From assembly GCF_036884295.1 (NCBI RefSeq), contig NZ_CP145608.1:2376285-2440284 (forward strand): DNA of 64,000 bases, read 5' to 3'. This DNA is from Brochothrix thermosphacta DSM 20171 = FSL F6-1036 (GTDB lineage: Bacteria > Bacillota > Bacilli > Lactobacillales > Listeriaceae). The notes beneath the pieces are model-generated. The model did no database searches. It was given only the letters and a program-made list of their open reading frames with translations, and was not told the origin of the DNA. Below are positions 166 through 38,720 of the stretch, one piece after another (the first letter of the stretch is position 1; each line of letters opens with the position of its first letter). The translations under genes and the position numbers were made by a program.

Positions 166-1623
166 TTGAGAAAAATACTATCTACTCATGATTTACGCGT
201 TTTGCATATTGTTGAGTACCTACATTTACATGAACAACCTTCTGTAAGTGAAATCTGTCGTTTTTTCAATATCACGTCGAAAACATTACGCACTGATATT
301 AATTTTATAAATGAATATTGTATGCCTTTACACATTACAACCCATAATTTTGATGGTATCTTCCTGGATATACCACAAAACTATACCGTTGAATATCTTT
401 ATGAAACCATTCTTTCTAATAGTACTGAATTCAAAATAATCGAAACTGTTTTCTTTGATGAAACGCATACCGTTGACTCTTTAGCTGAAAAATTATAACT
501 TAGCACATCAACAGTGCGTCGTCTCATTAAGCGTATTAATAAGGCATTAGTCCCTGAAGCTTTTTCTATCAGCCTTACTCCTCTAAAAATCGTAGGAAAC
601 GAGACAAATATTTGTAACTTCATCATCTATTATATCTCTGAAAAATATACGGGTCGAAAAAAACCTTTTTCTAGAATACAATTGAATGTTCTTGATAAAA
701 TGTTTATTTCAGCTACAAAGTCTAATGGTCACACAGTAAATTTCCCTCAAATTGAAAAATTACGTATTTGGATAATGGTTATTATTATTCGTCTTCAAAA
801 TGGGAATCATACCGATGTGTATACACCCTTTTCAGAGGATGTTGATTTGTCTGCACTAGAAAACCCTCTGTTTAAAAACCTTTTCAAACTAACTTTCAAA
901 GTAGAATTAACCGACGAAGTTATCTTTCGATTGTTTTATCCTTTTATAAATGAAAATTTTGCAGTTAATCAAGAAACACTTACTTCTATGGTCCAAAAAA
1001 AGGCTGAAGTAGCGGAAAAAGTTACTGCTCTACGTACATTATTAGATAATATTGCTTTAAAAATGAATATCCCACAACCTAACCAAAATGAGGTATTACT
1101 CAACCTCTATAATATTAGTATCTTCCAATATGGGAAACCCTATATACTATACAATCGTTACCAATATTTTGTTGATAGTATTGAAAAAGATTACCCCGAA
1201 TTCATCGCTGTCTTCAAAGAAGAACTTAGCAAAAGTAATTTAGGTGAATTAGAGACGCATACAATTAATTCATTTGCCTATACTATTTTTACAAATTGGC
1301 AAAATCTAATGCTTGAGCTAGAAAAATTAGCACCCAAAATGTCAGTTGGCTTATTTTTCAATACTGACGTGGAACATATGCGCATGTTAAAAGATAAAAT
1401 CACATATCTTTTTAATAACAATCTCGAATCGACTATAATAATGGACCTTTCACTCAAGTCATTTACGAAACATGCTCAAAAATACGATATTGTACTGACT
1501 AATATAACTGGATTACACGTCAATAATGTGCCTGTATTTTGCGTACCTGTTTTCCCGACAACAAAAGATTGGGTAGTTATTCATAACTACTATGAAAAAA
1601 ACATAAAAACCTCTCCCAAATGA
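166..1623 (+). pseudogene. Mga-like transcriptional regulator, interrupted by an in-frame stop
   Basis: A regulator of about 485 codons starts at TTG 166 behind TAGGAGG. A TAA at 496-498 interrupts it, and the same frame continues open to 1623. Before the stop lies an N-terminal HTH (SVSEICRFFNITSKTLRTDI) and the sequence SLAEKL. After it comes LSTSTVRRLIKRINKAL, the second HTH, then the long Mga/PRD-like region. In relatives this join usually reads LAEKLxLS, so one substitution (for example a Tyr codon to TAA) explains the break. The layout matches the intact 499-residue protein at 19668-21167. As it stands, translation would give a 110-residue fragment with one HTH and perhaps a reinitiated C-terminal part. 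A sequencing error remains possible. Confidence 0.8.
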
Positions 1624-11220: not shown

Positions 11221-11370
11221 GTTATTTGACACCTCCCTATATATCTCTTTATTTTACCTAACGTCTTATTCATACGTCAATATCAATTCCTTATACACTC
11301 ATCAAAAGGGTCTACTTTTGATACTCTAAATATACCTCACATCTTGAATAATAAATGATGTAACTAAAAA

Positions 11371-11403
11371 AACGCCAAGACTTTTTTACAAAAGTCTTAA
11401 CGT
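11371..11403 (-). terminator. Terminator downstream of the Ig-like surface protein gene
   Basis: On the minus strand AACG-AAGACTTTT pairs with AAAAGTCTT-CGTT and is followed by a T-rich run. It ends the surface block transcript about 70 bp after the gene. Confidence 0.75.
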
Positions 11404-11472
11404 TCCGTTTTATTTTATGATTTAATACCACTAATTATAACCCTATGATTAGTCGTAAATAAAATCATGCCT

Positions 11473-14400
11473 TTATTTAAGTTCGAATTTGTATACTTCT
11501 TTACCTGCTTTATCAAGCACTTTTAGAGCATATGCATAGTTTTTTTCATTTCCAAAATCTTTAGGAATAATCGCTTGGAACGTATGGTCATCGCCCAGAC
11601 TTGTTGGAATACCCCATGAAGTTGGTGCACTGTGTAAGTTTTCAATTGTTTTTACAACTTTATTTGAACTGTCTTTAATTTCTAACGTTTTGTTGAGGTC
11701 TTTAAATGATTCTTCCCCTGTCACATAACCATCAAAAACGAGTTCAGTATTATTGTTCCAATATTTATTGAACAATCTAAGCTGTGTGTCTTCGCCAAAT
11801 TTTTCAATCTTAATCGCTGGAGAGTTATCGCTGACAAATGGCGATACTTTATTCTCTTTCAAAACAACACTTTCAAGATCATTGTATTTATCATGATAAG
11901 CACCACTACGCATTGCTGGTTTATTTAGCTCTAGCTTAACTGAATCTTGATCAACACCATCAATTTTAATATTCATCGTGAAGCTGTAATCATCCGCTGC
12001 TAAATCACCTAACACATCATTGTTAACGATGAATTGATAACCATCAAATTGCCCTGTTTTATACCAATCGGTATTAGCAGCTGTGATTGTTTTCACTACT
12101 TGACCTTTTGAATCAGTAACAGATACCGTTTTTTCAACTTTTGTCTTATCCGTTAAATCCCAATCATCATTGTTAACTTTCCCTTCATAAACTAAGCCGA
12201 ATTTTTCCCAGTAGCCTAGTTTAAATTCAGAAGTTGTCTCTGCAGCTGCTGCTTTTTCTACAATGGTTGTAATGTTTTCTGACTTTTTATTTTCTTTTCC
12301 GTCTTGATGACCAATTAATGTCGCCGTAATTTCGTCACCTTCAGCTAAAGTTACATCTTTTGGTAATGAAAAACTAAATTCTTTTTCTGATTTCACTACT
12401 TCTGAAATGATTTTTTCACCATTTTGTGCAATTTCAATTGAATAATTACGTCCAAAATCAACTGCTTGTTGAGGAATATTACCAGTGATTTTTGTATCTT
12501 TAACCGTTAAATTATTCAATTCTGGATTAACGATTTTCCAATCCGCCCAGTTACTAGCATCCTTAACTTTTGTAGTGATTGTCTCACTCAGTTTAGACTC
12601 TTTATCTTTTTGATGCCCTTCAACTGTAATGGCAATTTCATCATCTTCTTCTAGTGTTACTTTTTCTGGTAATTCGAAATTGAATTTAGAATCAGATTCA
12701 ACTTTTTCGTTTATAATTTCCGTACCATTTTGTGTGATAGTGACAGTATAATTACGATCAAAATCGATGTCTTGCTTAGCAATTTCACCTGTAATAGCAG
12801 TTGATTTTGTTGTTAATTCATTCAGTTCTGGGTTAGCGATTTTCCAGTCAGACCAGTTCGTACCATCTATTACTTCTGTTGATACTTTATCACTTGATAC
12901 ATCATCAAAATCAACTTGATGACCTACGACAGTGACTGTAACATTATCTTTGACTGCTAATTTCACTTCTTTTGGTAAGTCAATTTTATAATCACCATCT
13001 GGTGTAATTGCTTGTGTACTAATTACTTCATCATTCACCGCAACCTCAATTTCATAGTTACGGTCAAATTCGGTATCTTCTACTGGTACAGTTCCTGATA
13101 CAAATGTGTCTGTATCTTTTACATCATTGATAGTCGCTGCTGCAACTTTCCAATTTTCATGATCTGTAACATCTTTCACAGTTTCTGTCGTATCTTCACT
13201 ATCTTTGTCTTCCTTGTCTAGTTCGTGCCCCACAACGATTGCTGTTACTTTGTCCTTGTATTTCAAGTCGATTGAATCAGGAACACTCACCGAAAATTCA
13301 CCACCGCGGGCTGTATAACCTTCTTCAGTCGCGACTAACTTATCATTCACTAACACTTCAACATCATAAGTACGACCGTTAAATTTATTTTGAATCGGGA
13401 TGACACCTCTAATAATTTCATCACCTGATGAAATAGTTTCTAATTCTGTTGGTTCAACTGTCCAATTTTCCCAACTTTCTTGCCCTTCTTTATTTTCCTG
13501 AACAACTGTTTCAGCAACAAGGCTTTCTTTATCTGTTTCGCCTTCTTCATGTCCGATAATATAGGCCTTAACAACGTCACCTTTTTGAAGCACTTCATCA
13601 AATAACGGTGCGACTAGAGAACCAGATTCACCTGAAATAACAGCACGTTGTTTCTCAACATCATTAACTGTTACAACAGTTTCATAGGTGCGGCCATTTT
13701 GATGATTCTGCTCTGGTAAGTTACCTGTGATAATTGTTTCTTCATCATAAGCATCCGCTAAGGTAGGTGTTTTAATTTCCCAATCTGCCCATGATGTTGA
13801 ATCTTCACCCACAGTATAGAAAGTAGGTGCAGAAACTTTTGTATTCACAATACCATTACCATTAGCTTCTGTTTCAGTACCCTCTACATAAGCCTTTACA
13901 ACTGTTCCATTTGCTAAAGGTTTATCTTTACCATTACCCAGTGGTTTATCAAACGTTTTTTGCCAGTTTCCTTCACTATCTAGCTGGATGTTTTTGTATT
14001 TTTTTCCATCAATTTCTAATGTTACAAAATAATTTGTATCATGTTCATTGTCCATTGGTTGATAACCTACTCCAGTAAAAGTCATTTCATCTTCTGAAGT
14101 AATTGTAGTCGGTTTCACCTTATTTTCAATCCACGTATCATCTGGTAAATCATTACCGTTTAACACTGATTCTGCTGCACCCCATGACCAGTTAATACCA
14201 AGGTCAGCGTTTCCAGATTTCACCTTAAAGTTGAAGAAGTCTTTACGCTCTACTAAACGCCCCGTATCTTTAGACCATTTATCTAAATCAATTTCTAGAT
14301 TAACATTTTGATATTGATTCGCAGATACTACTGATACTTCACTAAAAATAACAATGGCATTTATTTTTTCATCAAAATAAGCTGTATCAAAACCATTTAG

Positions 14401-14844
14401 CGGCCCCGTTTTTTTATCCCATAATTTTTGAATCTTAACATTGCTATTACCAATCCCAATATTATGAAGACGATCTACAGACCCTCCTAAATATTGTTTG
14501 TAATTCGGTGTACTAAAAAATTCTGATGCAAATTCAGGATCTACTGTAATCGTTGTTTTCGTTTGCGTTGCAAATCCAACAGCCAATAATGCCGATGAAT
14601 TTGTATTAATTGTTAAGACACCATCTGTGTTTTCTAAATTTTTAAATTTGTCAGAGTAGCCTGTTCCCATACTAGCAAGAGGTGTTATACCTGCGCTATT
14701 TGTAATGTTATTCAGTTGACTCTTTGTCACCTCTTTGTTAGTCATATCGGCTGATGCAACTAAAGGTACCATCATAATTGCAGGTATCATGAGTGTTGAC
14801 GTTACTGCTAATTTTACTGCCTTCTTCTTTTTATTAATTGTCAT
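11473..14844 (-). CDS. Large secreted surface protein with five Ig-like repeats
   Basis: This 1123-residue protein begins with a signal peptide (KKKK basic stretch, then a hydrophobic core ending near ASA, residues 1-32). A non-repetitive region (about 35-340) resembles the N-terminal head seen in Listeria/Enterococcus surface proteins. Five repeats of about 100 residues follow (starting near 354, 458, 565, 666 and 768), each opening with W-x-x-W-like (NWSDWKI, NWADWKI) and containing a conserved NGRTY or DRNY and GHQ motif. A C-terminal domain from about 873 begins FKLGYWEKFGLVYEG. There is no LPXTG, WxL or GW anchor; the protein ends YKFELK. It may bind the wall non-covalently or be released. 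It lies downstream of wall-polymer genes on the same strand. Confidence 0.85.
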   Translation of the reverse strand: MTINKKKKAVKLAVTSTLMIPAIMMVPLVASADMTNKEVTKSQLNNITNSAGITPLASMGTGYSDKFKNLENTDGVLTINTNSSALLAVGFATQTKTTITVDPEFASEFFSTPNYKQYLGGSVDRLHNIGIGNSNVKIQKLWDKKTGPLNGFDTAYFDEKINAIVIFSEVSVVSANQYQNVNLEIDLDKWSKDTGRLVERKDFFNFKVKSGNADLGINWSWGAAESVLNGNDLPDDTWIENKVKPTTITSEDEMTFTGVGYQPMDNEHDTNYFVTLEIDGKKYKNIQLDSEGNWQKTFDKPLGNGKDKPLANGTVVKAYVEGTETEANGNGIVNTKVSAPTFYTVGEDSTSWADWEIKTPTLADAYDEETIITGNLPEQNHQNGRTYETVVTVNDVEKQRAVISGESGSLVAPLFDEVLQKGDVVKAYIIGHEEGETDKESLVAETVVQENKEGQESWENWTVEPTELETISSGDEIIRGVIPIQNKFNGRTYDVEVLVNDKLVATEEGYTARGGEFSVSVPDSIDLKYKDKVTAIVVGHELDKEDKDSEDTTETVKDVTDHENWKVAAATINDVKDTDTFVSGTVPVEDTEFDRNYEIEVAVNDEVISTQAITPDGDYKIDLPKEVKLAVKDNVTVTVVGHQVDFDDVSSDKVSTEVIDGTNWSDWKIANPELNELTTKSTAITGEIAKQDIDFDRNYTVTITQNGTEIINEKVESDSKFNFELPEKVTLEEDDEIAITVEGHQKDKESKLSETITTKVKDASNWADWKIVNPELNNLTVKDTKITGNIPQQAVDFGRNYSIEIAQNGEKIISEVVKSEKEFSFSLPKDVTLAEGDEITATLIGHQDGKENKKSENITTIVEKAAAAETTSEFKLGYWEKFGLVYEGKVNNDDWDLTDKTKVEKTVSVTDSKGQVVKTITAANTDWYKTGQFDGYQFIVNNDVLGDLAADDYSFTMNIKIDGVDQDSVKLELNKPAMRSGAYHDKYNDLESVVLKENKVSPFVSDNSPAIKIEKFGEDTQLRLFNKYWNNNTELVFDGYVTGEESFKDLNKTLEIKDSSNKVVKTIENLHSAPTSWGIPTSLGDDHTFQAIIPKDFGNEKNYAYALKVLDKAGKEVYKFELK

Positions 14845-14962: not shown

Positions 14963-16069
14963 TTAACTCATTTTAATAAGTGCGGCTATTATTTTAGCAG
15001 AGGCATTACCATCTCCATAAGGATTGCTCGCTTTACTCATTTGTTCATACAGCACTCTATCGGTTAACAAATCTAGCATAGCGTTTTGAACAGTTTCTTT
15101 TTCAGTACCTATTAGTTTTAATGTGCCAGCTAAGACACCTTCCGGTCGTTCAGTAGTCTCACGTAAGACTAATACCGGCTTTCCTAATGAAGGGGCCTCT
15201 TCTTGAACTCCGCCAGAATCAGACATAATAAAATAGCTTCTCGCAGCCATATTATGAAAATCAAAAACATCTAGTGGACTAATGAGGTGAATACGGGGAT
15301 GATTACCTAACAATTCATGTGCACTTTTTTGTACAATGGGATTCAGGTGGACTGGGAAAATAATGTGCGTGTGTATATCTGCATTTATCACCTCAGTTAT
15401 CGCTTTAAATACTTCTTCCATTGGTGAACCCTGATTTTCACGTCGATGCATCGTCAGTAGTACAAAACGATCCTCCAGCGGAATTTTATGTAACACGGGG
15501 TGTTCATATGTATCTGTTATTGTATATTTCAATGCATCAATTGCTGTATTACCGGTTATATGAATCGCTGACTCATCATGTGCTTCATTCAAGAGATTTT
15601 GACGGCTTTCCTTAGTGGGTGCAAAGTAGATATCACTTAATGAATCTGTCAATTGACGATTCATTTCTTCAGGAAATGGTGAGTATTTATCATAAGTGCG
15701 TAGTCCAGCCTCAACATGACCTATTTTCACTTGATTATAAAAAGCTGCTAAGCTAGCTGCTAATGTTGTTGTTGTATCACCATGCACAAGGATTAGTTCT
15801 GGTTTTACACTTTTTAGTACACAATCTAATTGCTGAATAACATTACTTGTTATCTCAGACAATGTTTGTTGATCTTTCATAATGTCTAGATCAAAATCTG
15901 GCGAAATTGAGAACGTCGCTAATACTTGATCCAACATTTGGCGATGTTGAGCTGTTACTGTGACGATGACCTCAAAATTAACATTTTTTTTCAATGCTAA
16001 AATTAGTGGCGCCATTTTAATGGCTTCTGGGCGCGTGCCAAATACTATCATTATTTTCCTTTTTTTCAT
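14963..16069 (-). CDS. wecB: UDP-N-acetylglucosamine 2-epimerase
   Basis: A 368-residue non-hydrolysing epimerase (WecB/MnaA family) that interconverts UDP-GlcNAc and UDP-ManNAc for teichoic acid or polysaccharide synthesis. Family motifs are visible: FGTRPEAIKMAPLI at the N-terminus, HGDTTTTLAASLAAF, HVEAGLRTYDKYSPFPEEMN and SDSGGVQEEAPSLGKPVLVL. The start is ATG 16069 behind AGGAGG; the frame runs on upstream into the preceding gene. It follows the LtaS-like gene by 16 bp, so the product probably feeds the same surface-polymer pathway. Confidence 0.93.
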   Translation of the reverse strand: MKKRKIMIVFGTRPEAIKMAPLILALKKNVNFEVIVTVTAQHRQMLDQVLATFSISPDFDLDIMKDQQTLSEITSNVIQQLDCVLKSVKPELILVHGDTTTTLAASLAAFYNQVKIGHVEAGLRTYDKYSPFPEEMNRQLTDSLSDIYFAPTKESRQNLLNEAHDESAIHITGNTAIDALKYTITDTYEHPVLHKIPLEDRFVLLTMHRRENQGSPMEEVFKAITEVINADIHTHIIFPVHLNPIVQKSAHELLGNHPRIHLISPLDVFDFHNMAARSYFIMSDSGGVQEEAPSLGKPVLVLRETTERPEGVLAGTLKLIGTEKETVQNAMLDLLTDRVLYEQMSKASNPYGDGNASAKIIAALIKMS

Positions 16070-16085
16070 TGCTGCCTCCTTTTTG

Positions 16086-17921
16086 CTAAATGCTAAAGAG
16101 CTCTTTACTGTAGCCTTCTCCAACAAACATGTCATATTGAAATAATTGATAATCGTGCAGAGCCTCCTTTAGTGGCGCTGTTAAAGCAATTTTTTCACCT
16201 TTCGAATTTAAAAAAAGGTTCTTTGCAATATTATATGCAGGTAACTTTTGCATTAAGTCATGTTCAAACTGGTAGAAAGGAGCTTGTGCTACGCTCATTT
16301 CGCTGAAAGCTAAACTACCTAAAAAACCTGGGTTGATTATCTTTGGTTTTTGTTCACCATTTATTTTATTGTTCCAGACAAAATAAGGCGTTAAGTATTT
16401 TTGAAGTTGTTTATCGTCTTTAAAAAAAGCGTTATCGTATAATGATTGATTCAGAGCTGGTCCATGGTCACCGTAAAAAACAACTGTTGTCGGTTGATCT
16501 AGCTCGGTTAACTTTTGAATAAGTAAATCAATTGTTGTATCCATTTTTTTAACACCACGCGCATAAAGGGCCAATTGGTCACCATCAACGATATCTTGGT
16601 AGTTTTCTAATAAATTATCGTCTTGCTTCAACTTACCTTTTGTGGCTTCTGTATAGGGATAATGATTTTGCATACTGACACTGTTAATAAAAGTCGACTT
16701 GTCATTTTTGTTAACTTCTAACAAAATACGGTCAACAAAACTCATATCACTGATGTAGCCTTCATCATAATAAATCGGCAATTCCTTACTTTCAGCAATC
16801 ATTGTTTCTCGTGATATAAAGGAATCAAATCCTAATTTTTTATACACCTCATTGCGTTGATAGCCTTTTTTCAAATGTGAATGAACCCCTTTTGTCTCAT
16901 AACCTTGTTTTTTCAAAAAGAAAGGAATGCCGATATTATGATCGTTTTTTTCCAAAATATGATTATAGGCAATACTATTTTTTTGTAAAAAGTTATAATC
17001 AAATCCACTCAACAAACTAAACTCGACATTAACTGTACCACCACCAAAAACTGGGCTATACATCGAACCTCCGAATTTTTCTTGTAGTTTATGAATCGTT
17101 GGCAACGGATCTTCGGTCCACTTTGTATCAGGAAATTTCGTGGGATCAATCAAGGATTCGCTGAGGATATAAATAATTTTTTCTTTTTTCACAGGAACTG
17201 CTATTTTTTCTATCGGATATTTTGCATTGTATTTTAAAACAAGGTCCTTCATTACTATTTCTGAATAATCAGTTGGTCGCGGCATTATTTCAGGATTCAT
17301 ACTTTCAATAAAATACTCAACTGCACCACTGTTTTGATTTTCGCTTGTTCTTTGGGTTGCATAACTGGTTGAATGATTGATATATAGTAAACAACTCGCA
17401 CTTACTACTACACTAATACAGAGACCTGTTACTCGTAATTCAAGCGACAGTTGTTTGTCTCTCCAAAATTTATTGTACAGCCAGCCGCATAACACTATGA
17501 CACTAACTGTCACTAAAACCAATATAAAATGCGGTTTACTAGTCATTTCCCAGACTACCTCTTTCAATAAATTATTTTGGAAATCCGCCCAAACAATGGG
17601 TAAACCTGTACTTACGTTTTTTACACCATTGGCGACCGTAAGCAGTACACCTATCATGATAAATAGATAACTTCCAATCGCTATATTCGTTAATGAAATT
17701 ACAAATAATAATACTGAATAACCTAATAAATAAATCGTTAATGGATAATTAAACACATTTGAAAAGTCCCTAATATTACTATTTTCAACCATTGACGTTA
17801 CTAATAGGCCAACCAGCAATAGATAACCTATCAGATATATCCTCGATTTTTTATTAGCATTGAAAAATACTGTTGCTAACATTAACGCTAAAATAACACT
17901 CACATTAATAACTACATACAT
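16086..17921 (-). CDS. LtaS-type sulfatase-fold phosphoglycerol transferase
   Basis: A 611-residue membrane enzyme. Five or so N-terminal membrane helices (residues 1-190) precede an extracellular sulfatase/alkaline-phosphatase fold (about 245-560). The candidate nucleophile is the Thr in FGGGTVNVEFSLLSG. Metal-ligand motifs are YILSESLIDPTKF, where the conserved Glu lies, and VVFYGDHGPAL. This family includes lipoteichoic acid synthase and phosphoglycerol transferases that decorate wall polymers. The order of neighbours (GT2 upstream, wecB downstream) suggests modification of a surface glycan rather than housekeeping LTA synthesis. Which of these it does cannot be settled here. Confidence 0.85.
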   Translation of the reverse strand: MYVVINVSVILALMLATVFFNANKKSRIYLIGYLLLVGLLVTSMVENSNIRDFSNVFNYPLTIYLLGYSVLLFVISLTNIAIGSYLFIMIGVLLTVANGVKNVSTGLPIVWADFQNNLLKEVVWEMTSKPHFILVLVTVSVIVLCGWLYNKFWRDKQLSLELRVTGLCISVVVSASCLLYINHSTSYATQRTSENQNSGAVEYFIESMNPEIMPRPTDYSEIVMKDLVLKYNAKYPIEKIAVPVKKEKIIYILSESLIDPTKFPDTKWTEDPLPTIHKLQEKFGGSMYSPVFGGGTVNVEFSLLSGFDYNFLQKNSIAYNHILEKNDHNIGIPFFLKKQGYETKGVHSHLKKGYQRNEVYKKLGFDSFISRETMIAESKELPIYYDEGYISDMSFVDRILLEVNKNDKSTFINSVSMQNHYPYTEATKGKLKQDDNLLENYQDIVDGDQLALYARGVKKMDTTIDLLIQKLTELDQPTTVVFYGDHGPALNQSLYDNAFFKDDKQLQKYLTPYFVWNNKINGEQKPKIINPGFLGSLAFSEMSVAQAPFYQFEHDLMQKLPAYNIAKNLFLNSKGEKIALTAPLKEALHDYQLFQYDMFVGEGYSKELFSI

Positions 17922-17934
17922 TTTCTATTTACCG

Positions 17935-19253
17935 CTACTTTCTATTCAGACTGTCCGTAGAAATTGCACTTGAATGTTCCGTTTTTTTCCAGTGATTTTG
18001 TGGTAAAAACCATGTGAAAAAGCCTTGAATTTGTGCAAAGTAATAAAGAAGCGTTGAATAAAAGTAACCAATCCATAGCAACAAATACTCTTTGATACGC
18101 TGAGAAACTGACAGATCTTCAAAATAACTTTCACCTTCTTGAATAATATAAACTGTCGGTAATAATATATAATTAATAAACTCAAAAAATAACCAGAGCC
18201 AAAATAGCGAAAAGAAATAAGGAAAGCTTTCAATAAAACGACGATCAATCACTATTAGAAATACTAAACCTAATAACCATACCGAGCGTAGCATTGAATA
18301 AGAATAAACCAATGTTTCACATTTACTTATTAATTCTATTAATGATTTAGATTTGAAAAGAGAGCCTAGCTGTTGACCTGTTTTTGAAATCGCAATATAC
18401 CAATGTCCTTGTGACCAACGTGTTCTTTGGACATGACTTGTCTTAATGTCATTTGGTTTCTCATCATATACTTTTGCAAAATGATTCCAAGTACTTTTTT
18501 GCCTTGAATTGATAACTCTACTTGAATTTCAAAATCTTCAGTATAACTACGCGGTGTCCAACCATTTTCTTTAATATAATTTGTATCGATTGCAAAACCT
18601 GTACCACCAATTGATGTATTCCATCCCAAACGGTGTTTTGCATATTGAATCGCACGGTTAGTGATAAAATAGGCCGCTGCATACCCACGCGACATAAATG
18701 ATTCATTGATATTTTTAGAATCTAGATAACCTTGTATGACTGTTAAGTCTGTGTGTGCTAGAAATTGCGAATTAATTTCCAATAAATAATTTTCTGAAAT
18801 TAAATTGTCGGCATCAAGAAAAACAATGTAATCAAAATTTTGCCAATATGTTTTATTTTCACGTAAATATTTACCAATAACATGAGGTTTACCTCGGGGT
18901 TCTCCTCTTTTACTTCTGTTCTCAAAGAGATTAACACCGTCCCTTTTTCTCACGATACTTGCGGTCTTATCATTGCAGTTATCTGCAAGTGTCACCACTT
19001 TATAGAGATTTTTATCATAGTTCAATTGACCGATACTTTCTAAACAGTTATCAATTACATTTTCTTCATTATGTGCGGGTACAATAATTAGGAAACTTTT
19101 ATCAGCTGCTTTAATATCATAATTACGTTTTACCTTTTTCAATCCAAATAAACCTAAAATTGAATAAAAACCTAAGTGAATAAAAACCACTATCGACATT
19201 ATTAAAGTAAAAACCTTAATAAAATTGTATAAAAAATCTGGTACTACAAACAT
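17935..19253 (-). pseudogene. Processive GT2 glycosyltransferase (PgaC/IcaA-like), split by a one-base frameshift
   Basis: The first part (19253 to 18366) gives a membrane helix, the GT2 start KSFLIIVPAHNEENVIDNCL, the DxD-type FLDADN, GGTGFAID and TEDFEIQ. Then the frame is lost. If one A is added to the A6 run at 18495-18500, the reading continues KKSTWNHFAKVYDEKP and reaches QRTRWSQGHW, the catalytic QxxRW motif. It then joins the frame of 17935-18312, which holds the C-terminal membrane helices. The restored protein would be about 440 residues, normal for processive GT2 enzymes such as those making poly-N-acetylglucosamine. As read, the main frame lacks QxxRW and its terminal helices and should be inactive. 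Alternatives are phase variation at the A-run, recoding or a sequencing error. Confidence 0.85.
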
Positions 19254-19667: not shown

Positions 19668-21167
19668 TTGTTTTTACTTACGAATAAAAGTTATAAACGA
19701 CAGTTACAATTAATACAGTCATGTTTCAACGCCTCAAGGCCGCTCTCACAAAAATATTTAACAACTACTTTAAAGTGTTCAATTTCAACCCTCACCAACA
19801 CCATCAACTATATAAATGAAGAATTCGAATCCTTACAGTTTGAATATCGTGATGGCTGTTACACCCTCATTTCAAAAAGAGGTTACCGACTTAACGAAAC
19901 ATACAAACACTTTTTACAAACAGCTGAAGAATATAAACTTTTCGAACAACTTTTTTTTCATGAAGAAAGTATTCAATACTATGTAAATACGCTTTTCATG
20001 AGCGAGTCAAACATTCGAAGGATGGTGAAAAATCTCAATAAAGAACTGCGGCCAAAAGGTCTGTTCATCACTACAAATCCGATGAAGCTAAACGGAGATG
20101 AGTGGACAGTAAGACAAGCTTTCACTAGTTTTTTCTATGAAAAAAATCGTTTGGATTTCCAACAAACGTTTGGAGAAAATGTTCTATTTTATGATACCCT
20201 CACTGAAAAAACACTCTTTATTATGGGTGCTAAAGTATCTATGACAAACGCTCTCCTGTTAAAATACTGGTTGTATATCAGTGTTCAACGAACAAAAAAA
20301 AAGTATCATTTAAATAAACACACTTCTGCTACTAATGATGACTATTTCGCAAACACTCTTTATACATCAATTAAAGCGGATAATATTTTCCAACTTGAAT
20401 TCACTAAAAATACAGGTCTTGCTGTCACAATAGAAACAATTGGAGATATACTTCCACATATAGATAGAGCATTCATTAATAACAATCAGCCACTGAAAGA
20501 AACCGATTATTACTTTTCTACCTATACAAATATTTCTTTACAGATGATCAGTGACCTCATAACTCAATTAGAGCGAGGATTAAATAGCTACGCTTCTTCA
20601 ACTGTCAAAAATGAATCCATACATATGCTTTATAACTATTGTTCAACCCATTATTGTGTCCCTTCTTTTGCATACGATTTTAATAAGGCCTTTATTGATC
20701 TAATTCGCGAGAAAAATCCGCTCTTTGAACCCTTACTAAAAAAAACAATGACTCAACTCAACTATCCTCCAATGCTCCTTGAAGATCTAAATCAATATCA
20801 TGGATTTTTTGAAATGATTACAATGTTATTCCCTGATTTTTTCATAACTTCTTCCAATTACAAACCGATACGAATCTTTCTAATAACAGATTTCATCCCC
20901 TCTTATGTTAGTTTTCTTATTTCCAGATTGTATGATGAATTTGGAACAGAAATCATTATTAACACGTGTGAGAACATCTCACGGGATACCCTTTTAAGAA
21001 GTGAGGATCTTTCTGAAAAAATTATTCTTATCAGTAATTTTTATGATTTACCAATCAATGCCAAAGAATATGATGCGTTCATCTTTTTTAATAGTTTGTT
21101 AAGTGCTAATGACATTGCTAATATAAGAGCATTAATCGCAGTTGATAAAAAAAATTGGACCCTTTAA
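19668..21167 (+). CDS. Mga-like transcriptional regulator
   Basis: A 499-residue regulator starting at TTG 19668 behind CGGAGG. The N-terminus has an HTH (residues about 10-60, PLSQKYLTTTLKCSISTLTN). A second HTH (about 95-155) includes YYVNTLFMSESNIRRMVKNL. A long Mga/PRD-like region follows. The family controls surface and sugar genes in Gram-positive cocci and often responds to PTS phosphorylation. It diverges from the surface-polymer block (19307-11473), so that block is the natural candidate target; this is inference. It shares architecture with the interrupted regulator at 166-1623. Confidence 0.8.
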   Translation: MFLLTNKSYKRQLQLIQSCFNASRPLSQKYLTTTLKCSISTLTNTINYINEEFESLQFEYRDGCYTLISKRGYRLNETYKHFLQTAEEYKLFEQLFFHEESIQYYVNTLFMSESNIRRMVKNLNKELRPKGLFITTNPMKLNGDEWTVRQAFTSFFYEKNRLDFQQTFGENVLFYDTLTEKTLFIMGAKVSMTNALLLKYWLYISVQRTKKKYHLNKHTSATNDDYFANTLYTSIKADNIFQLEFTKNTGLAVTIETIGDILPHIDRAFINNNQPLKETDYYFSTYTNISLQMISDLITQLERGLNSYASSTVKNESIHMLYNYCSTHYCVPSFAYDFNKAFIDLIREKNPLFEPLLKKTMTQLNYPPMLLEDLNQYHGFFEMITMLFPDFFITSSNYKPIRIFLITDFIPSYVSFLISRLYDEFGTEIIINTCENISRDTLLRSEDLSEKIILISNFYDLPINAKEYDAFIFFNSLLSANDIANIRALIAVDKKNWTL

Positions 21168-25225: not shown

Positions 25226-25312
25226 AAAAAAGGTGTGCTTTAAATAAACGGATGCCCTTATAGGTAGGTGCTTTTAAAAAGCCTACAGCTATCGTTGGTT
25301 AACCGTTCCTTT

Positions 25313-25452
25313 GATTACTTCTCCCATCCAGACTTTAACTGTCGGTTTCAGATTTTCACTGAATCAACCACAATCGAAATTATGGTTCACGGACTTCAAA
25401 AATAATATTTTTGTCACCGCCGGTCGGGAATTACACCCTGCCCCGAAGAATC
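25313..25452 (-). ncRNA. FMN riboswitch (RFN element)
   Basis: On the minus strand the aptamer opens CTTCGGGGCAGGGTG-AATTCCCGACCGGCGGT and closes AGTCTGGATGGGAGAAG, both hallmarks of the RFN element. The ends pair as GATTCTTC / GAAGTAATC. It lies upstream of ribD and should turn the operon off when FMN is abundant. The remaining leader to ribD is about 220 bp. Confidence 0.97.
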
Positions 25453-25610
25453 ATTATTCAATTGAACACAGCATATCACCTGTTTTTTTATTTGTCAATA
25501 TCAGTATTTTTTATTAAACACAGCAGAACCATCAAGTCAGTAAGTTCCCCTCACCTATAAATGCAAATAATAGCAACGAATCGAGTCAAAAGACTCTTCA
25601 CTGTGTTATA

Positions 25611-36911: not shown

Positions 36912-37268
36912 ATTTATCCACTATCTATTAAGCTTAAAAGAATGACATGAAAACTTTTCTGACAAAAACATTTACTACTTCTTATACCCTAGTTCCCATC
37001 TAATTTAATTTAAAGTTAACATCCTTTTCCGAAATATTGACTTTTTTTAAACAGTATTACTCTTTTTGATATCAAATACATCCGCCCATATAACTGCAGA
37101 ACAGCTATATGTAAGTCAGCTATTTTTATAGTTTCATGTGGAACTATCTGAAACCTATATATTTTAAAACTAGCGACAATTATGAATATGTGGATAGGCT
37201 ACACTAAGTTAGACAGAATAAATGAGGGCTTGTAAACTAAGACTACTAATAAAAAGGAGTGTGCTACT

Positions 37269-37550
37269 ATGCCACGTCAACGTCGAACATTTACGCCTGA
37301 ATTTAAACTGCAAATGGTGAAGCTTTATGAAAATGGAAAGTCACGTGCTGATATTGCTCGTGAATATGATTTAACCCCTTCGGGATTAGATAAATGGATT
37401 AAAAATCATCAAGCTACTGGCTCGTTCGCAGCTAAAGATAATCGAACAGAAGATGAAATAGAACTAAATAAATTACGTAAAGAAAATCAGCGGTTACTAA
37501 TGGAGAATGATATTTTAAAGCAAGCGGCGCTGATCATGGGACGAAAATAA
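37269..37550 (+). CDS. IS3-family transposase, OrfA
   Basis: A 93-residue DNA-binding OrfA. The HTH domain (TFTPEFKLQMVKLYENGKSR, then IAREYDLTPSGLDKWIK) is followed by a leucine-zipper coiled coil (LNKLRKENQRLLMENDILKQ). It binds the element ends. It starts at ATG 37269 behind AAGGAG. The stop lies in CGAAAATAA, an A-rich site where ribosomes could slip -1 into orfB and make the OrfAB transposase. Confidence 0.92.
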   Translation: MPRQRRTFTPEFKLQMVKLYENGKSRADIAREYDLTPSGLDKWIKNHQATGSFAAKDNRTEDEIELNKLRKENQRLLMENDILKQAALIMGRK

Positions 37551-37552
37551 AT

Positions 37553-38398
37553 GTGATTCGTAATAACGCTCACCTTTATTCGGTATCAGCAATGTGTGCC
37601 GTCCTCGAGATTAAAAGGAGCACCTATTATTATCATATAAATTTAGATGCCACTTCGCAGCGAAAAACAGAGGACATCGCACTTTCAAAAGAAATTGAAC
37701 GGATTTTCAAAGAAAGCCGTAATAATTATGGTACGCGTAAAATCAAAAGAGAATTATTAAAGTTAGCTGAACCTAAACATGTATCAAGACGCCGAATTAG
37801 CCGCATAATGCATTCGTTAGGTTTAGTTTCAAACTACACTGTGGCTCAATTTAAACCGCAAAAATCACGTTCGAATGAGGCACTTATAAGAAACGAGTTA
37901 AAACGTGCGTTCATTCAAGAAAAAGAATTAGCTGTCGTTGTAAGTGATTTAACATACGTTCGTGTCGGTGGAAAGTGGCATTATGTATGTTTATTTGTAG
38001 ACCTTTTCAATCGTGAAATTATTGGACATAGTGTAGGAGAAAACAAGACTGCAAGTCTTGTCTATGAAGCATTAGCAAGCATTTCTGCAAATTTAAATGA
38101 CATACAGCTGTTTCACACGGATCGAGGGAAAGAATTTGATAATCGGTTGATTGATGAAGCGCTTGAAACATTTAATATTCAACGTTCACTAAGTATGAAG
38201 GGTTGTCCTTACGATAACGCTGTAGCGGAAGCAACATTCAAAGTGTTTAAAACAGAATTCGCAAACCAAGCTCACTTTTCCAATCTTAATCAGCTGGAAC
38301 TTGAATTAAATGATTACGTTCATTGGTTTAATAACATCCGTATTCATGGAACATTGGGTTATTTAACGCCTACCGAATTTAAATTACAGCCCTTATAA
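37553..38398 (+). CDS. IS3-family transposase, OrfB
   Basis: A 281-residue DDE integrase-fold protein in the -1 frame of orfA; this frame is open upstream into orfA. An N-terminal HTH_21 region (GTRKIKRELLKLAE) precedes the rve core. Catalytic residues are visible: Asp in VVSDLTYVRVGG, Asp in LFHTDRGKEF and Glu in DNAVAEATFKVFKTE. It ends LTPTEFKLQPL, as in many IS3 members. All three catalytic residues are present, so it is likely active. Confidence 0.92.
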   Translation: MIRNNAHLYSVSAMCAVLEIKRSTYYYHINLDATSQRKTEDIALSKEIERIFKESRNNYGTRKIKRELLKLAEPKHVSRRRISRIMHSLGLVSNYTVAQFKPQKSRSNEALIRNELKRAFIQEKELAVVVSDLTYVRVGGKWHYVCLFVDLFNREIIGHSVGENKTASLVYEALASISANLNDIQLFHTDRGKEFDNRLIDEALETFNIQRSLSMKGCPYDNAVAEATFKVFKTEFANQAHFSNLNQLELELNDYVHWFNNIRIHGTLGYLTPTEFKLQPL

Positions 38399-38720
38399 TT
38401 TTTGTTCAATTTACTGTTGCCATTCCAATGTTTTAAAACAAACTATTCTAACACTCTACATTCAGATGATTCCTAAACGGCAGAATATATGCCTCTAAAT
38501 AAAAATAAAAAAAGAGCGAACATTAATGTCCACTCCTTTTTTCTATAATAACCACATGCGGCACTACCTACCTTTTATTGGCTCCATTCTGTTAGCTCTA
38601 TTCAAACAATCATCACCTATGATATAAATGTGTAGCTCATGAGTAGTTTCTATTTCAAATTAAATGTTATTTTGCAAAAGTAAAATTCTTTAGGGCCTTC
38701 TCACAACCCTACTTGTTCTT

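Follow-up and report, generated by a model that had tools for sequence, protein, structure and literature searches.

Does a polysaccharide-synthase gene that changes reading frame at a short run of adenines contain a switch, an accidental loss of function or a mistake in the assembly? A locus in Brochothrix thermosphacta DSM 20171 raises this question. It lies in a stretch of 64,000 nucleotides, genome positions 2,376,285-2,440,284, hereafter the window, to which all positions refer unless another source is named. We approached it by locating the break, comparing the gene with its homologues, surveying the genome for comparable lesions and examining the genes that accompany the synthase.

A GT2 synthase gene divided between two reading frames

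On the minus strand of the window, a GT2 polysaccharide-synthase gene falls into two pieces: its two reading frames meet at a run of six adenines, where a small change in length has split it (Table 1). An earlier note on this DNA had placed the split at this run and QRTRW, the gene's QxxRW motif, in the other frame, and both the positions and the motifs proved correct; the strand had not been given there. The first frame is homologous to related synthases up to about residue 253 and carries the DADN and TED motifs; after ...SIQGKK follow 42 residues unlike any homologue and then a premature stop (18366-18368). By homology search, the head corresponds to residues 3-251 of an intact homologue from a genome of another family, G051 (51% identity, E 1.7e-86), and the tail to residues 249-430 of the same protein (49% identity, E 1.4e-57), which served as the intact reference for both parts. 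In the multiple alignment head and tail abut with zero gap and one column in common, and a dicodon coding score trained on the B. thermosphacta genome switches frame exactly at the run (146, then 56).

When all hop points were scored against the homologues, the best join (191.4) fell within the run, at its two AAA codons. A base lost just 3' of the run was also considered and fits slightly worse, with 185.8 for the next codon downstream. The run is thus the best-supported break site, other sites still being possible, and the localisation proposed earlier stands as the best-scoring join, though not as the only one. One added A had been predicted to rejoin STWNHFAKVYDEKP and QRTRW in a frame of about 440 residues, which agrees with the combined homologous length of head and tail of about 439 residues. 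As it stands, the gene has the features of a frameshift pseudogene, namely a premature stop relative to its intact homologues and the loss of the essential motif QxxRW.

Table 1. Features of the synthase locus, with positions in the window
Feature	Position	Strand	Remarks
GT2 synthase, first frame	18366..19253	-	295 aa; N-terminal part and GT2 domain; Pfam Glyco_tranf_2_3, E 1.7e-18
A6 run, point of frame change	18495..18500	-	T6 on + strand
GT2 synthase, second frame	17935..18495	-	STWNHFAKVYDEKP..., QxxRW and C-terminal region; 186 residues to stop at 17935
QRTRW (QxxRW catalytic motif)	18415..18429	-	second frame only
LtaS-like sulfatase-fold membrane protein	16086..17921	-	intact; Pfam Sulfatase 7.1e-42; LtaS equivalog far below cut-off
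Non-hydrolysing UDP-GlcNAc 2-epimerase (WecB/MnaA)	14963..16135	-	intact; TIGR00236 505 bits, cut-off 210
Secreted repetitive adhesin-like protein	11473..14844	-	1123 aa; intact; without LPxTG
Adhesin C-terminal domain	11473..12297	-	~270 aa; no clear Pfam or NCBIfam family
Terminator-like hairpin	11369..11406	-	17 pairs; 3' of adhesin gene
AcpB/EbpR/MafR (Mga-type) regulator, divergent	19668..21167	+	

Judged from its motifs and relatives, the product would be a membrane-bound GT2 polysaccharide synthase of the QxxRW type and is probably processive. The head alone reaches 68 bits against Pfam PF13641 (cut-off 27), and DADN, TED and QxxRW are all present, the last only in the other frame. A profile of the intact homologues matches chains of cellulose synthase (5ej1, 4hg6) and hyaluronan synthase (7sp7) with modest scores; with these enzymes, as with PgaC/IcaA and EpsU, the protein shares the GT2 domain, DADN, TED, QxxRW and the C-terminal membrane region. 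Assignment to PgaC/IcaA itself was rejected. The PgaC/IcaA model finds the G051 homologue at E 1.4e-24, and the equivalog TIGR03937 gives 34 bits for the window head and 87 bits for that homologue against a cut-off of 422; moreover, no icaB- or icaD-type partners are seen in the operon, which holds an epimerase and an adhesin instead. The EpsU equivalog cut-off is likewise far off (82 of 700 bits).

Age and cause of the break

A search of 395 genomes of the order matched 13 of them with an E-value of 1e-30 or lower. We read 14 homologous loci; each is a single open frame, between 434 and 483 residues long, and has QxxRW where it is expected. The plasmid copies in Lactococcus lactis LB7 and Enterococcus raffinosus CX012922 are likewise annotated and read as intact, and among all homologous loci read the split is found only in the window genome. 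At none of the 14 loci, nor in the two plasmid copies, does the homologue stop at the end of the first frame; the earlier note had named homologues with a true end there as the finding that would speak against a break, and all prove to be full length. Searches of the other genome contigs with the pattern across the run and with the protein yielded no sister strain, and neither did viral contigs. The gene is absent from the 85% complete assembly of the other Brochothrix species examined.

The tail shows no sign of decay behind the break. It keeps all 36 residues that are invariant among the 14 aligned homologues, just as the head keeps all 65 of its own, and the tail/head identity ratio of 0.92 equals that of 74 intact homologue pairs (0.90 +/- 0.06). 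Since every invariant tail residue is kept, any real break must be recent, in line with the recent or reversible change suggested from the window alone. Such preservation would fit a recent mutation, a reversible mutation and an assembly error alike.

With moderate confidence, we favour an ordinary and recent loss-of-function mutation by slippage in a strain-variable accessory gene. A one-base length change at the run would throw translation out of its true frame after SIQGKK, and the wrong residues and the stop that follow would leave a product without QxxRW and the C-terminal region. Lacking both, the truncated synthase is expected to be inactive, and the polymer would hence not be made. The early stop might also lower translation of the downstream operon genes by polarity. 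Such a mutation could revert at a low rate and would not be an evolved switch. A precedent exists in the related genus Listeria, where A6/A7 slippage is a natural inactivating event in inlA (PMC2831843). The inlA frameshift of L. monocytogenes occurs in the same family, Listeriaceae, at an A-run of the same length, is of the same kind and also strikes a gene of surface function; in contrast to the GT2 run, which lies mid-gene and in one genome, the inlA tract lies at the 5' end and is polymorphic across isolates (PMC2831843).

How common such lesions are in this genome was surveyed in 464 kb, comprising 20 sampled stretches of 20 kb and the window, by looking for coding-frame breaks without a start signal and testing the candidates with Pfam. 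Seven other genes appear to be broken, an approximate count in which some pairs were judged by the order of their domains and the coding score, not against an intact orthologue. All seven are accessory: two GH3 glycosidases, a type III methylase, two Mga-type regulators and two adhesin/lectin proteins. Over all eight genes the lesions amount to about seven in-frame stops and four frame changes, and two of the other frame changes likewise fall at A-runs of six or seven. Because random homopolymer errors should also strike core genes, the accessory nature of all the broken genes favours real loss at the strain level. Two further candidates were discarded, MarR/MFS as normal neighbouring genes and purE/purK as intact genes that overlap normally.

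The main rival to a mutation is an assembly or sequencing error, in which the run would have been miscalled and the strain would have an intact gene; we consider it unlikely, yet the most serious of the alternatives. Homopolymers are the classic site of such errors, many of the bacterial pseudogenes recorded in databases are of technical origin, as artefacts of assembly (PMC11017572), and a tail without any relaxation is equally what an error would produce. Against this, the genome is a single contig of 2,564,037 bases (G+C 35%) with a completeness of 99.96%, and the broken genes of the survey carry mostly in-frame stops, not homopolymer indels, besides being accessory throughout. We thus infer that the mutation is probably real.

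Also conceivable, with a distinctly lower probability, is phase variation, in which slipped-strand mispairing at the run would turn the gene on and off and the assembly would have caught the OFF state. The break does lie at the run in a gene that is otherwise intact, surface polysaccharide loci can phase-vary, as S. aureus icaC does through a tetranucleotide repeat (PMC4117637), and the A6/A7 tract of inlA is reversible (PMC2831843). Six adenines, however, are a short and ordinary run: each kb of coding sequence holds ~2.9 A/T runs of at least six bases, which extrapolates to ~6,300 genome-wide, so that a break at one of them is expected for any slippage frameshift. Among the homologues read at the site, only G031 and G125b, the closest homologue (64% identity in the head), have an in-frame A-run of six or more. 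Most lack it, and the run is therefore not maintained as a switch. It also lies ~57% into the gene and not at the 5' end, and it does not form the long or conserved simple-sequence tract that distinguishes phase-variable loci. Even the inlA tract gains an A at only ~1e-7, about a thousand times the point-mutation rate and far below typical phase variation (PMC2831843). The earlier note had taken the homopolymer as a pointer to phase variation, and this does not hold for a run so common, so little conserved and so far inside the gene; of its two outcomes for the polymer, absence agrees with the inactive product expected here, while switching has become improbable.

Recoding by ribosomal -1 frameshifting or polymerase slippage, which would yield some full-length enzyme, is very improbable, for although A-runs are slippery and a -1 shift is what is needed, the single frame of the 14 homologous loci and the two plasmid copies means that neither recoding nor the frame transition is conserved, the zero-frame phase is AAA AAA G and not the slippery A AAA AAG, no downstream structure is predicted (folding z -0.14), and bacterial transcription slippage has been described on runs of ~9 A or T (PMC5009743), in contrast to six here.

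The operon and its epimerase

The synthase gene heads an operon in which genes for an LtaS-like protein, an epimerase and an adhesin follow on the same strand. All three are intact frames, and the view that the rest of the surface block is undamaged was thus correct. The genes are tightly packed: the LtaS-like gene starts 14 bases after the synthase stop and is overlapped by the epimerase gene. The LtaS-like protein is a probable phosphoglycerol-type transferase. Behind the adhesin gene, the hairpin is the probable end of the operon, and promoter matches within the operon occur at chance level only. By its position, the divergent regulator probably controls the operon; a regulator of the same family lies upstream of the GT2 gene in G051. 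Another Mga-type regulator gene of the AcpB/EbpR/MafR family, at 166-1623 (+) of the window, is broken by an in-frame TAA at 496-498, and the C-terminal part of its product is closer to the synthase-adjacent regulator of G051 (E 1.8e-59) than the divergent regulator is.

A second copy of the epimerase adjoins the ATP synthase genes elsewhere in the genome, so the copy in the operon is probably dedicated to it. From this, and from the parallel with E. coli, where the NGR glycan depends on WecB (PMC8669472), the operon epimerase is expected to supply UDP-ManNAc as substrate, and the polymer would thus contain ManNAc. The NfrB/WecB pathway behind this glycan, the receptor of phage N4, likewise combines a glycosyltransferase synthase with a need for a WecB-type epimerase and is postulated to make a ManNAc-based polymer; it differs in being controlled by c-di-GMP, in its Gram-negative host and in the place of WecB in the ECA locus, and the abstract mentions no adhesin partner (PMC8669472).

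Association of synthase and adhesin

The association of synthase and adhesin is a more interesting result of this analysis than the frameshift itself. The C-terminal domain of the adhesin occurs in 9 of the 395 genomes of the order, and all nine carry the synthase; conversely, ten genomes have a close synthase, and of these only G031 is without the domain. Fisher's test gives p 1.7e-17 for this co-occurrence, which involves five genera, when the genomes are treated as independent, a value that overstates its strength because they are not independent and several of the species are congeners. In 16 of 16 copies the domain forms the very C-terminus or lies close to it, and none of these proteins has an LPxTG. 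In other genera, too, a WecB-type epimerase is repeatedly found near the synthase, together with an adhesin that is similar in its C-terminus to the one in the window. Cassettes of adhesin, GT2 and wecB are also found on plasmids, namely in L. lactis LB7 (L098, 5432-10524), close to Tn3-family transposase genes, and on the E. raffinosus megaplasmid (L099, 5600-10516), so that the trio may move as a unit. A single-sequence structure prediction of the C-terminal domain was too poor for use (pLDDT 46).

The simplest functional reading suggested by this co-occurrence is that the polymer holds the adhesin. We tentatively propose a two-part surface display, for which the odds seem to us somewhat less than even: GT2 and WecB would make a ManNAc-type polymer, and the C-terminal domain of the adhesin would bind it and so retain a protein that has no LPxTG. 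Shared regulation, or a shared role in a biofilm matrix without any binding, is a possible explanation of the same pattern. Conceptually, the proposed display resembles SLH-domain proteins, in which a domain is held on a ManNAc-containing secondary cell-wall polymer (PMC6030368), yet the operon contains neither an SLH domain nor a CsaB-like gene, and the C-terminal domain of the adhesin belongs to no clear family. A literature search for a known synthase-adhesin cassette, judged by titles and abstracts, recognised none.

If the proposed display is true, loss of the synthase frame would release the adhesin and alter adhesion with the adhesin gene untouched. A true link between synthase and adhesin would amount to a new way for Gram-positive bacteria to anchor adhesins, and natural synthase mutants like the B. 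thermosphacta allele would make the idea directly testable. The frameshift itself is ordinary: as one more recently inactivated exopolysaccharide gene it bears on strain differences in biofilm, and B. thermosphacta strains indeed vary widely in biofilm, with known gene differences that could not be linked to phenotype (PMC9785830). Altogether, the break is of a common kind with no evidence of a deliberate on/off switch, though the cassette to which the gene belongs, with its large surface adhesin, has been little studied.

Some minor observations concern other genes of the window and of the surveyed stretches. A giant adhesin gene with collagen-binding and SpaA-repeat parts (L081, 8770-17863, -; genome 2470001-2490000) has an A6 frame change and two in-frame stops. 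One GH3 glycosidase gene (L065, 10950-13252, -) is apparently interrupted by an in-frame stop and shifts frame at an A7 run, and a second (L063, 6698-9483, +) also looks broken. In the window, an FMN riboswitch (25312-25454, -) lies upstream of the riboflavin operon, and an IS3-family element (37200-38600, +) shares ~77% identity with an element carried by a plasmid of Priestia flexa.
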